The notes under the pieces: generated by a model
Told to the model about the DNA's origin: nothing
The model's input: the letters and a program-made list of their open reading frames with translations, nothing else
The model's database searches: none
Shown here: one piece after another, positions 15,276 through 22,561 of the stretch
Layout of the letters: every line of letters starts with the position of its first letter
Numbering within the stretch: the first letter of the stretch is position 1
Position numbers and translations under genes: made by a program
From: Methanobrevibacter olleyae
GTDB taxonomy: Archaea; Methanobacteriota; Methanobacteria; Methanobacteriales; Methanobacteriaceae
NCBI RefSeq assembly: GCF_900114585.1
Contig: NZ_FOTL01000010.1
Location: 1-58,677, forward strand
Direction of reading: 5' to 3'
DNA: 58,677 bases

Positions 15276-15316
15276 TAAAAGTACAATATATTAATAGAGA
15301 ATATATTGGTGGTACT

Positions 15317-15820
15317 ATGTGGGGAAATTTAAATTTAAAGTTTAGTAAATATCCTGCAAGAATGACTGTAGCTCAAAAAATGTTTGAATTAGGTTTAAGA
15401 ATAGCGGATGACGGAAAAATATATTGTGGGGATTTAAAAATCAGTGATTCTGCATTAGCAGCTGCAGCAAATGTTGATCGCAGAGTAATTAAATCTACTG
15501 TAGATGTTATTATTGCAGATGATGAATTGTATGAAATATTTTCAAATATTATTCCAGCAGGAACATTAATAAAAAATATTGCAAAGAATTTAGATTTGGG
15601 TGTTATTGAGATAGAAGCTGGTGAAAAAAGTGATGGTGTCTTAGCTAATGTAGCTTGGATAATGAGTAAGCATAATATAAGTATCCGTCAAGCATATGCC
15701 GGAGACATTCAACTGAAGACAAATCCTGTCTTAACAATCATTACAGAAGACCCTATTCCTGGAGAACTTTTAAGTGAATTCATTAAAGTGGAAGGAGTTT
15801 TAAAAGTTTCTATTCTGTAA
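15317..15820 (+). CDS. ACT-domain amino-acid-metabolism regulator (COG2150-like)
   Basis: A 167-residue protein. The N-terminal ~70 residues look like a helix-turn-helix (FSKYPARMTVAQKMFELGLRI, then SDSALAAAANVDRRVIKSTVD). The C-terminal half (LGVIEIEAGEKSDGVLANVAW to the end) is an ACT fold that binds amino acids. The frame is open further upstream, but the ATG at 15317 follows GGTGGT and starts the conserved MWGNL N-terminus, and the upstream part overlaps the promoter. Likely role: amino-acid-responsive transcription control; possibly self-regulated through the adjacent palindromes. Confidence 0.8.
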   Translation: MWGNLNLKFSKYPARMTVAQKMFELGLRIADDGKIYCGDLKISDSALAAAANVDRRVIKSTVDVIIADDELYEIFSNIIPAGTLIKNIAKNLDLGVIEIEAGEKSDGVLANVAWIMSKHNISIRQAYAGDIQLKTNPVLTIITEDPIPGELLSEFIKVEGVLKVSIL

Positions 15821-16231: not shown

Positions 16232-17377
16232 ATGTTAAGAGATCCTATTATTCAAAATTTATTTCCGGAAATATTTGAATTTGAAGAGGCTGTAGATATT
16301 ATCGGATGTCTTAAAGAATGGCCTAAAAGTAGATTATGTGCTGATAAGGATATTGCTAGAAAAACTAAAATAGATATTAAAACAGTTAAAGATGTTCTTA
16401 AATTGCTTGAAAATAATAATTTTGTTTATCCTGTAAAAGTTAATGAGGTTTGTATAAAGTTAATTAAACATTTTAGATCTGGTAAACTTTCTCATGAAGA
16501 GATGGCTAAAAAAGTTAAATTAGATGTAAAAATTGTAGATCAATTCATTGAAGAGAACGAATCTCTTTTAGAAGAAACTAAAAAAACATACTGTCAAAAA
16601 ACCTTAAAAACTTTAAATGACAATTTAAATTCTTTAATTAAAGGAGAAAAAAAGGACGAAAGAGATAAAAAGGATAAAAAAGGAAAATCTTCTGAAGACA
16701 ATAAAAAAGAAGATGAAAAGGACGATGTAGTTGGAGATGAATCTTCTGAGGATGATAAAAAAGTTATCAATGAAGATAAAGAATCTGAAGAACTAGTAAT
16801 TAAAGAAGCTGTTGATGTTTCAGAAGAATTTGAAGAAAAAGAAAAAGCTACTAAAAAGCCTAAAGCTGGAAAATCTAAAAAAGAGAAAACTACTAGAAAA
16901 AGAGCAGTTAATCAAAAATTTTGGTATCTTACTTTCGATGAGACAATTGAATGCCTTAAAAATGGATATACAACAGATGAAGAAATCTCTGAAGAAATCA
17001 GTTGTAAGTTAAATATAGTGAGAAAAATTCTTTATAAACTATATGATATGCGCTTAGCAAGTTATAAGAGAGATAAAGATAAAGAAACTCAATGGTATAC
17101 TTATGATTGGAAATTTAGTGAAAATGAGTATAAGAAATTAGAATTTAATTTAGCAAGTTCAGAACTTAAGAGATTAAATGCTGAATTGACATATGAAGAA
17201 AACAATATGTTCTTTGTTTGCCCATTTGGCCATTACCGTCTTGACTTTGAGGATGCTTCAACTGTTGAATTCTTATGTCCAGAATGTGATGTTGACTTAG
17301 AATTCGAAGACAATCAGGAAAAAATAGATAAGAAAAAAGAAGAAATTAAAGTTCTTGAAGATATAATTTCCAGTTAA
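16232..17377 (+). CDS. tfe: transcription initiation factor E alpha (TFE) with enlarged N-terminus
   Basis: TFE stabilises the open complex of archaeal RNA polymerase. The C-terminal part is clear TFE-alpha: winged helix at 231-290 with LNIVRKILYKLYDMRLASY, KDKETQWYTYDWKF, then a zinc ribbon (Cys330, His334, Cys349, Cys352) and a terminal helix. Archaeal TFE-alpha is usually 160-200 residues; this is 381. Residues 1-30 (MLRDPIIQNLFPEIF...EEAVDIIGCLKE) mimic the normal TFE N-terminus, then come two more helix-turn-helix-like segments (about 34-68 and 75-108) and a Lys/Glu/Asp-rich linker (about 136-226) before the true winged helix. The second zinc ligand is His instead of the usual Cys. No frameshift is apparent and the frame is continuous. 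AAGGAAG ribosome site. Confidence 0.9.
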   Translation: MLRDPIIQNLFPEIFEFEEAVDIIGCLKEWPKSRLCADKDIARKTKIDIKTVKDVLKLLENNNFVYPVKVNEVCIKLIKHFRSGKLSHEEMAKKVKLDVKIVDQFIEENESLLEETKKTYCQKTLKTLNDNLNSLIKGEKKDERDKKDKKGKSSEDNKKEDEKDDVVGDESSEDDKKVINEDKESEELVIKEAVDVSEEFEEKEKATKKPKAGKSKKEKTTRKRAVNQKFWYLTFDETIECLKNGYTTDEEISEEISCKLNIVRKILYKLYDMRLASYKRDKDKETQWYTYDWKFSENEYKKLEFNLASSELKRLNAELTYEENNMFFVCPFGHYRLDFEDASTVEFLCPECDVDLEFEDNQEKIDKKKEEIKVLEDIISS

Positions 17378-17534: not shown

Positions 17535-18440
17535 TTATTCTATTTTTCTAATTAAAACTGCAGGTGTATGAATAATAGAATCTAATGATTTAAGACTAAT
17601 TTCATTAGTATCAGAATTTAAAACCTTTTTCACACTATAAATAGTTTCCATTGCTGTAGATAATGATTTTTGATAATCTTCTGCAATATTTGCTATCTTA
17701 ATAGCTTCATCAACATCTATTTCTCTTGAACAAGCAAGGGGAGTTGATCCTAAATTTTCAGATAACTGGCCTAATGTGTATCCAAAAACACCTTTATTTG
17801 CTTCAATACCTGGAATAGCTATTGGAAGACCTGTGAAATATTTATTTCCTTTCTTATATGTCGCATCGGTATCTATAATTAAAGTGATTATTGTATTTTC
17901 TGTTTTATTTTTTATATTTTCTGTAATTTCCTTAGCTACTTTTTCAGGATTCTCTGGAAGTAAAGATACATATGTTCCTGGTGCATTACTTAAATCGATT
18001 CCAGCTTCTGAAGCAGGTTTTAATGCATGTTTCCAACCATATAAATCTAAAACAAGCTCTTTATGTCTTTCAGATTCTTCTTCAGGAAGTTTTCTTAAAT
18101 TTTTAATAGTTCTTTCTTTTATTCCAAGAATAGGTCCTAAAATGTATCCCCAGAAGTATTTACTCCAATATTTAGCTAAAAATTTAGCTTTATAAGATGC
18201 TGTATAATTAGCTTCATCAACTAACCTTCCTTGAGATACAGAAATAGGTGTTTCTGCAATAACTAAATAATCATTTTCTTCAGATAATTTAGAAATCTCC
18301 TCTATCATAAAATTTATACTTTCATTAGGTTTTATATAATGTGTTTCAATCGGAATAACTTGATATCCTTTAATTTCAACATATTTATATCTTTGCCCTT
18401 CTTTAGTTTCTGATTCTCTATAATTTGGATTAGTTGTCAT
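17535..18440 (-). CDS. F420-0:gamma-glutamyl ligase-like protein (CofE superfamily paralogue)
   Basis: A 301-residue protein related to coenzyme F420-0:L-glutamate ligase. Family features: the early IPIETHYIKPNE strand, LVIAETPISVSQGRL (matching the EDILVIA-K-VS..EGR element), and PLACSREIDVDEAIKIA near the end. A segment with RHKELVLDLYGWKHALKPASEAGIDLSNAPGTYV marks a distinct subgroup separate from canonical CofE of ~250 residues. ATP/GTP-dependent glutamylation of F420 or a related compound is inferred from the family. Convergent with tfe; the start follows AAGATACT, a weak ribosome site. Confidence 0.75.
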   Translation of the reverse strand: MTTNPNYRESETKEGQRYKYVEIKGYQVIPIETHYIKPNESINFMIEEISKLSEENDYLVIAETPISVSQGRLVDEANYTASYKAKFLAKYWSKYFWGYILGPILGIKERTIKNLRKLPEEESERHKELVLDLYGWKHALKPASEAGIDLSNAPGTYVSLLPENPEKVAKEITENIKNKTENTIITLIIDTDATYKKGNKYFTGLPIAIPGIEANKGVFGYTLGQLSENLGSTPLACSREIDVDEAIKIANIAEDYQKSLSTAMETIYSVKKVLNSDTNEISLKSLDSIIHTPAVLIRKIE

Positions 18441-22069: not shown

Positions 22070-22561
22070 ATGGAAGATGCTAAAAATTCCATATTTGCTC
22101 TTAAAACATCAGCAGGTCAAGAAAGAAATGTTGCAAGACTTTTAGCGATGAAAGCGGACAAACCTGGAGTAGATATTAAATCAATCGTTGTGCCGGAATC
22201 ATTAAAAGGTTATATTATAGTTGAATCTGCAACTAACCTTGATATGAAGAACCCTGATATGAAAGTTCGTCATTTAAGAGGTATTGTAGGTGCAAATAAA
22301 GATGGAACTATTGATCCAAGTAGTCAAATAACCTTAGAAGAAGTTAAAAAATTCTTAAAGCCACAACCAATTATATCTTCTATACAAAAAGGAAGTATTG
22401 TTGAACTTGTTTCAGGTCCTTTCAAAGGTGAAAAATCTAAAGTTGTTCGTTTAGATGAATCTCGTGAAGAAGTAGTTCTCGAGTTAATTGAAGCAGCAGT
22501 TCCAATTCCTGTTACTGTTAAAGCTGATCAAATTAGAATTATTAAAAAGGAGGCTGACTAA
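22070..22561 (+). CDS. spt5: transcription elongation factor Spt5 (NusG family)
   Basis: A 163-residue NGN-KOW protein. The NGN domain opens with [21 protein letters not shown], and the KOW motif lies at about 105-140 ([19 protein letters not shown]). Spt5 closes the RNA polymerase clamp and promotes processivity. The stop overlaps the rpl11 start by one base (TAATG), so the two are coupled. Often still annotated as ribosomal protein L24-like or NusG. Confidence 0.95.

Follow-up and report, generated by a model that had tools for sequence, protein, structure and literature searches.

The window, a stretch of 58,677 nucleotides from Methanobrevibacter olleyae, contains at 16232–17377 on the forward strand an uninterrupted frame of 381 codons, tfe, which encodes an extended TFE-alpha. 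This assignment draws on orthologues, on a match to Pfam TFIIE_alpha (PF02002) at residues 237–323 (75.7 bits, cut-off 22.9) and on a match to the TIGR00373 transcription factor E model at residues 238–379 (158.4 bits, cut-off 149.5); a second equivalog model, NF004910, stays under its cut-off for the 381-residue protein (169.1 vs 180). The best PDB matches of the C-terminal part are the TFEs of P. furiosus and T. kodakarensis. By synteny, the gene occupies the orthologous TFE locus, with a TrpY-family regulator upstream (15314–15820, forward strand; NF053754, 201 bits) and a gene for an F420-0:gamma-glutamyl ligase-like protein downstream (17535–18440, reverse strand; PF01996, 88 bits). It also lies upstream of ftsZ and of spt5, the latter 4.7 kb away (22070–22561, forward strand; TIGR00405, 209.6 bits). 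The Spt5 homologue of M. jannaschii is reported to compete with TFE for the RNA polymerase (RNAP) clamp (PMC3223566). One TFE match was detected in the host genome (2.12 Mb, 99.8% complete) and it is the long gene; the long TFE is the sole detected, orthologous TFE-alpha of its organism. Production of a short TFE from an internal start was rejected for standard starts, since codons 91–263 contain no in-frame ATG, GTG or TTG. A literature search found nothing on Methanobrevibacter TFE.

An ordinary TFE makes up the last ~155 residues (227–381) of the protein. This part consists of the core winged helix (residues 227–296; 16910–17119), which scores 65.7 bits against PF02002 when searched alone and whose clamp-contact residues were mapped from T. 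kodakarensis TFE, a helix leading to the zinc ribbon (297–324 in the model; 17120–17203), and the zinc ribbon itself (327–360; 17210–17311), with the chain ending ~29 residues past the last zinc ligand. The ordinary TFE signature directly precedes the core winged helix, but here the core is without this leading segment and the ~15 residues in question (MLxDPIIQ...) now open the protein. They form the N-terminal signature MLRDPIIQNLFPEIF (residues 1–15; 16232–16276), which matches the TFE profile and, starting at Met1, is colinear with the TFE of another genome, G018, a short form. Between signature and core lie a first helix-turn-helix (HTH) unit, HTH1 (17–66; 16280–16429), assigned from PF02002, hhalign, predicted helices and dN/dS as a degenerate, wingless duplicate of the TFE winged helix; a second unit, HTH2 (71–110; 16442–16561), assigned from predicted helices, weakly similar to HTH1 and conserved in all long forms; a conserved tail helix that completes the N-terminal module (111–139; 16562–16648; helix 122–137 in the model); and a charged, flexible linker (140–226; 16649–16909) with pLDDT below 50, 27 Lys/Arg and 29 Asp/Glu in its 87 residues. 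All of these segments are on the forward strand.

Structure models were of low confidence, with a mean pLDDT of 58.6 for the full protein and 60.8 for residues 1–140. They place tri-helical HTH units at 17–61 and 72–108, a long helix at 122–137 and disorder across 140–228. The helices, at 17–28, 38–45 and 49–61 in HTH1 and at 72–83, 88–95 and 99–108 in HTH2, are predicted with moderate confidence. About 10 residues connect HTH1 to the next helix, which leaves little room for a wing, and the sequence suggests for residues 34–108 a pair of HTH units without wings, not a single winged helix. A Foldseek search of the N-terminal part of this low-confidence model against the PDB gave no match at E ≤ 0.001. 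The earlier note on this DNA had described a 381-residue frame with an ordinary TFE C-terminus, two N-terminal HTHs and a Lys/Glu/Asp linker, a description borne out by the frame, the profiles and the model.

Of the residues of TFE-alpha from T. kodakarensis, R51, R52, Y55, D59, F65, K66, R67, W75, Y78 and R81 touch the clamp or point towards it, R69 touches the lobe, and W75 and Y77 are exposed aromatics implicated in DNA contact (PMC7704642). The equivalent core positions are R264, K265, Y268, D272, Y278, K279, R280, K282, W288, Y291 and K294. R51, Y55, D59, K66, R67, W75 and Y78 are identical in the core; F65 is replaced by Tyr, R52, R69 and R81 by Lys, and Y77 by Thr (Thr290). HTH1 carries K53, D54, K57 and N61 at the contact positions and has no wing. 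Because the core keeps the contacts or near equivalents whereas HTH1 lacks both contacts and wing, the core can do the known TFE job, which HTH1 probably does not duplicate. The clamp coiled coil of Rpo1N hardly differs between genomes with a long and those with a short TFE, with no co-change with TFE length, and an Rpo1N insert at position 173 is common to both. By sequence, the zinc site has four putative ligands, C330-x3-H334...C349-x2-C352. The same C-x3-H...C-x2-C arrangement occurs in short Methanobrevibacter TFEs and in family f3 (CVNGH); Thermococcales have C-x4-H and other Methanobacteriaceae C-x4-C. The Cys-x3-His motif that had been singled out in the earlier note is therefore present, but it is, as judged from these sequences, ordinary for the order rather than special to the long TFE.

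Among 19 Methanobrevibacter genomes, 11 have a long TFE and five have short frames, with no TFE found in the other three. Ten of the 11 long forms measure ~356–384 residues and that of G007 measures 510; nine further Methanobrevibacter genomes keep the full length at 67–84% identity, and one long form (G002) is encoded in a single-contig genome of 2.94 Mb (2,937,203 bases). Across the Methanobacteriales, where 142 of 151 genomes gave a TFE match, lengths mostly fall at ~170–230 residues, and, apart from the long forms, just three frames (280–291 residues) are longer than ~230. Two genomes, G004 and G053, yielded no TFE although rated 99–100% complete, probably through fragmentation. TFE-beta (PF05158) was found over its cut-off in none of the 151 genomes, S. 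acidocaldarius serving as positive control. The long TFE is limited to a rumen-type clade of Methanobrevibacter and is not general in the order; the earlier note had held that an order-wide architecture would undo its reading, and with 11 long forms in one genus this does not apply.

The segments of the protein differ in how strongly they are constrained. The dN/dS ratio is 0.01–0.07 for the core winged helix, 0.05–0.20 for the zinc-ribbon part and mostly 0.03–0.15 (up to 0.25) for HTH1, with HTH1 and HTH2 together at 0.03–0.25. The linker, at 0.16–0.60, is the highest segment in every pair tested, and its length and sequence vary among species. The module is thus kept by selection, given its low dN/dS, while the linker drifts. 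Among the 11 genomes, 41 of 140 module positions are invariant. With net charges of 0 and +1, the module is charge-neutral overall and not an obvious DNA binder, and it has no conserved four-Cys Fe-S pattern. For certain species pairs, codons 1–60 (16232–16411) have fewer synonymous differences than the remaining codons (p 0.0002 to 0.03), a reduction that is absent in other pairs and was dropped as a signal.

As an initiation factor, TFE-alpha is conserved in archaea and most likely essential in Haloferax (PMC5861453). In the long protein, the core (227–381) would do the normal TFE job of bridging the RNAP clamp and stalk, opening the cleft and helping promoter melting. Lacking clamp-docking residues, the N-terminal module cannot simply repeat this job; carried on a tether of ~80 residues, it would most likely make a contact of its own within the initiation complex. 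Candidate partners are the promoter DNA, near the bubble or upstream of it, and a surface of TFB or RNAP. An added contact of this kind would raise TFE occupancy or help resist displacement by Spt4/5. The module may also partly stand in for the absent TFE-beta; against such compensation being required, TFE-beta is absent order-wide, yet most members have a short TFE. We see about an even chance that the sole TFE-alpha was enlarged by a lineage-specific duplication and that its tethered module adds a contact in the initiation complex, with a partner and an effect that we infer.

The module might instead be a regulatory or recruitment domain that binds another protein, such as a regulator, a chromatin protein or an elongation factor, and so makes TFE regulated. 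Its neutral charge, its many conserved hydrophobic and aromatic residues, its two wingless HTHs, its strong conservation and its long flexible tether would all suit such a role. However, no candidate partner gene came up, short of a systematic search, and growth by HTH units would be just as expected of a general binding surface; we consider this alternative rather unlikely, less so than the others below.

The duplication itself is approached by comparing the module with TFE. The N-terminal 140 residues alone match TFIIE_alpha at 7–66 (E 8.8e-5; 22.8 bits, just below the 22.9 cut-off) and also match HTH_9 of RPC82. Starting at Met1, residues 1–56 give a colinear alignment with the short TFE of the nearest short-TFE relatives over its N-terminus and HTH (score 100, z 17), and residues 29–70 alone, with the first 28 left out, align with the short-TFE HTH at z 5.5 (p 0.0005). 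Profile comparison with TFE (hhalign) gives E 1e-8 over residues 1–56 and E 5e-6 for the HTH alone. Compared with the core of its own protein, HTH1 shows no significant similarity (p 0.17) and fares more poorly than against the short-TFE HTH. Because an HTH-only TFE profile found the core in the organism's own genome and missed HTH1, the homology of HTH1 rests on N-terminus-inclusive and profile-profile comparisons. When the module profile was searched against the genomes G012, G013 and G018, the only match was the start of their own short TFE (E ~1e-6). HTH2 had no match in a domain-family search and its likeness to HTH1 is weak (z 3.7). Taken together, the alignments support residues 1–66 as a repeat of the N-terminus and HTH of TFE itself that arose by lineage-specific internal duplication, and the internal duplication of the winged-helix region envisaged in the earlier note holds up in the match of residues 1–60 to the TFE N-terminus and HTH.

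As an account of origin only, compatible with any function, a foreign winged HTH could have been inserted between helix 0 and helix 1 of TFE. When the 41-residue HTH1 piece (30–70) is taken alone, generic winged-helix families (RepL, TrmB and MarR) equal or exceed TFE in score, with RepL and TrmB the best (RNA_pol_Rpc34 scores weakly, E 0.13), and HTH2 is without a family match. We nevertheless find such an insertion rather unlikely: residues 1–56 run colinearly along TFE with the HTH included, and the search for a separate donor gene was negative in the organism's own genome, which offers none except TFE itself, in the short-TFE relatives and among viral contigs.

Internal duplication of TFE is also seen elsewhere. 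In g9, a different genus of the Methanobacteriaceae, the 280–291-residue TFEs of G054, G066 and G084 (L060, L050 and L059) have a clean, complete second extended winged helix in tandem (copy A vs copy B, z 21 in G054 and profile E 6e-11 in G066), and in alignments copy A has lost several clamp-contact residues; this duplication is independent of the Methanobrevibacter long form. Within Methanobrevibacter, a partial HTH duplication was detected in G008 (z 4.7) and by eye in G009, and the g9, G008 and G009 cases together indicate that N-terminal enlargement of TFE is recurrent in the family. The 510-residue TFE of G007 (L017) repeats the HTH2 unit (z 14.4), which, with the weak likeness between HTH2 and HTH1, indicates that the HTH array grows by duplication.

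Repeated and differing N-terminal expansions, a further HTH unit in G007 and a short allele in close relatives are also what neutral or nearly neutral growth might leave behind, harmless HTH duplicates being retained with no specific new function (constructive neutral evolution). A module dN/dS closer to that of the core than to that of the linker and the shared invariant positions speak against this, and we judge it improbable. Finally, an artefact, whether frameshift, misassembly or two fused frames, can be dismissed: the same architecture recurs in 11 genomes, including the single-contig one, purifying selection runs throughout the module, and full-length orthologues of the same design exclude the frameshift joining two genes against which the earlier note had warned. 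The protein is a genuine, conserved, clade-specific TFE-alpha variant whose architecture is well supported and whose function we infer.

Several further irregularities were seen in TFE and Rpo1N. A g9 subgroup has a strongly divergent TFE, whose zinc ribbon begins CCM, together with large Rpo1N inserts: ~98 residues at reference position 534 (L159, L160, L161, L157 and L158, from G042, G061, G055, G066 and G041) and, in some, 50–100 residues added near 148–155, beside the clamp zinc site. Co-evolution of TFE and clamp is possible in this subgroup. In L084, L072 and L073 (g12, probably Methanosphaera), an unrelated-looking N-terminus, MARKKVKYTFDYDSKFLNEHNVKKLAYELT, replaces MLxDPxVQ, and L063 and L064 (G102 and G039) are TFEs of ~219–227 residues with a ~50-residue insert ahead of the core winged helix. 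The Rpo1N of G012 (L102, L105) has a 106-residue insert at reference position 372. G008 has two extra, highly divergent Rpo1N-like frames (L107 and L108; 957 and 1217 aa, 286 and 263 bits), which may stem from contaminating contigs in the bin.

The history of the TFE gene within the genus differs from that of its surroundings. A tree of nine flanking genes (1993 columns) places the long-TFE genome G002 with the short-TFE genomes G013 and G018, as does the Rpo1N tree (support 100/100 and 100/98, respectively), and the flanking genes reject a single group of all long forms (p 1.8e-7). In the TFE-core tree, which has only 139 columns, all long forms fall together with G013 and G018 outside (support 100/99), and the TFE core rejects the G002, G013 and G018 group (p 2.5e-4), a tested grouping that was picked after the first trees had been seen. 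Despite their placement with G002, G013 and G018 (77% and 62% complete) carry their short TFE at the native locus (L170 and L169). The simplest reading of this conflict between flanking genes and Rpo1N on one side and TFE on the other is allele replacement at the TFE locus, and the trees suggest that TFE alleles were exchanged between lineages.

In the published view, archaea streamlined the initiation system, and eukaryotes elaborated it by winged-helix duplication (PMC4495717). Here, an archaeal clade has a sole TFE that grew by HTH duplication, with the short version still present in close relatives, and an enlarged basal factor has been identified in the ruminantium group of rumen methanogens. 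The long and short pair allows a direct test of the effect of an added winged-helix unit, the step proposed for RPC62 of RNA polymerase III. More speculatively, and with considerable doubt, we suggest that the sole TFE of Methanobacteriaceae may repeatedly be rebuilt into a multi-HTH factor, in convergence with the way RPC62 arose, that takes over TFE-beta-type functions or keeps TFE in place against Spt4/5, long and short alleles being swapped among lineages by recombination at the native locus.

Compared with canonical archaeal TFE-alpha (P. furiosus, T. kodakarensis, M. thermautotrophicus), the long TFE shares the winged helix, connecting helix and zinc ribbon, as well as clamp- and DNA-contact residues, genomic locus and single copy. 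It differs in the ~226 residues added at the N-terminus, which comprise two HTH units plus the charged linker, and in the place of the signature, which no longer adjoins the core winged helix. TFE-beta/hRPC39 would likewise bring an extra winged-helix unit to TFE-alpha, but the long TFE has neither a PF05158 match over the cut-off nor, in its module, conserved Fe-S cysteines. Eukaryotic TFIIE-alpha (Tfa1) resembles it as a TFE core with an extension that roughly doubles its length. In TFIIE-alpha the extension is acidic and lies at the C-terminus; that of the long TFE is N-terminal, contains HTHs and leaves the protein without an acidic C-terminal extension, so the likeness drawn in the earlier note finds no support. 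RPC62/C82 is similar as a TFE-alpha relative enlarged via winged-helix/HTH multiplication, and HTH1 matches HTH_9 of RPC82. RPC62 is a stable subunit of RNA polymerase III with four winged helices. The long TFE, in contrast, lacks four tandem winged helices, having one full winged helix and two wingless HTHs with the zinc ribbon kept, and it is an orthologue of TFE-alpha with an independent duplication. RPC62 is proposed to have arisen by winged-helix multiplication in a TFE-alpha relative (PMC4495717), and it is this multiplication, rather than TFIIE-alpha with its C-terminal extension, that is the nearest parallel to the long TFE.
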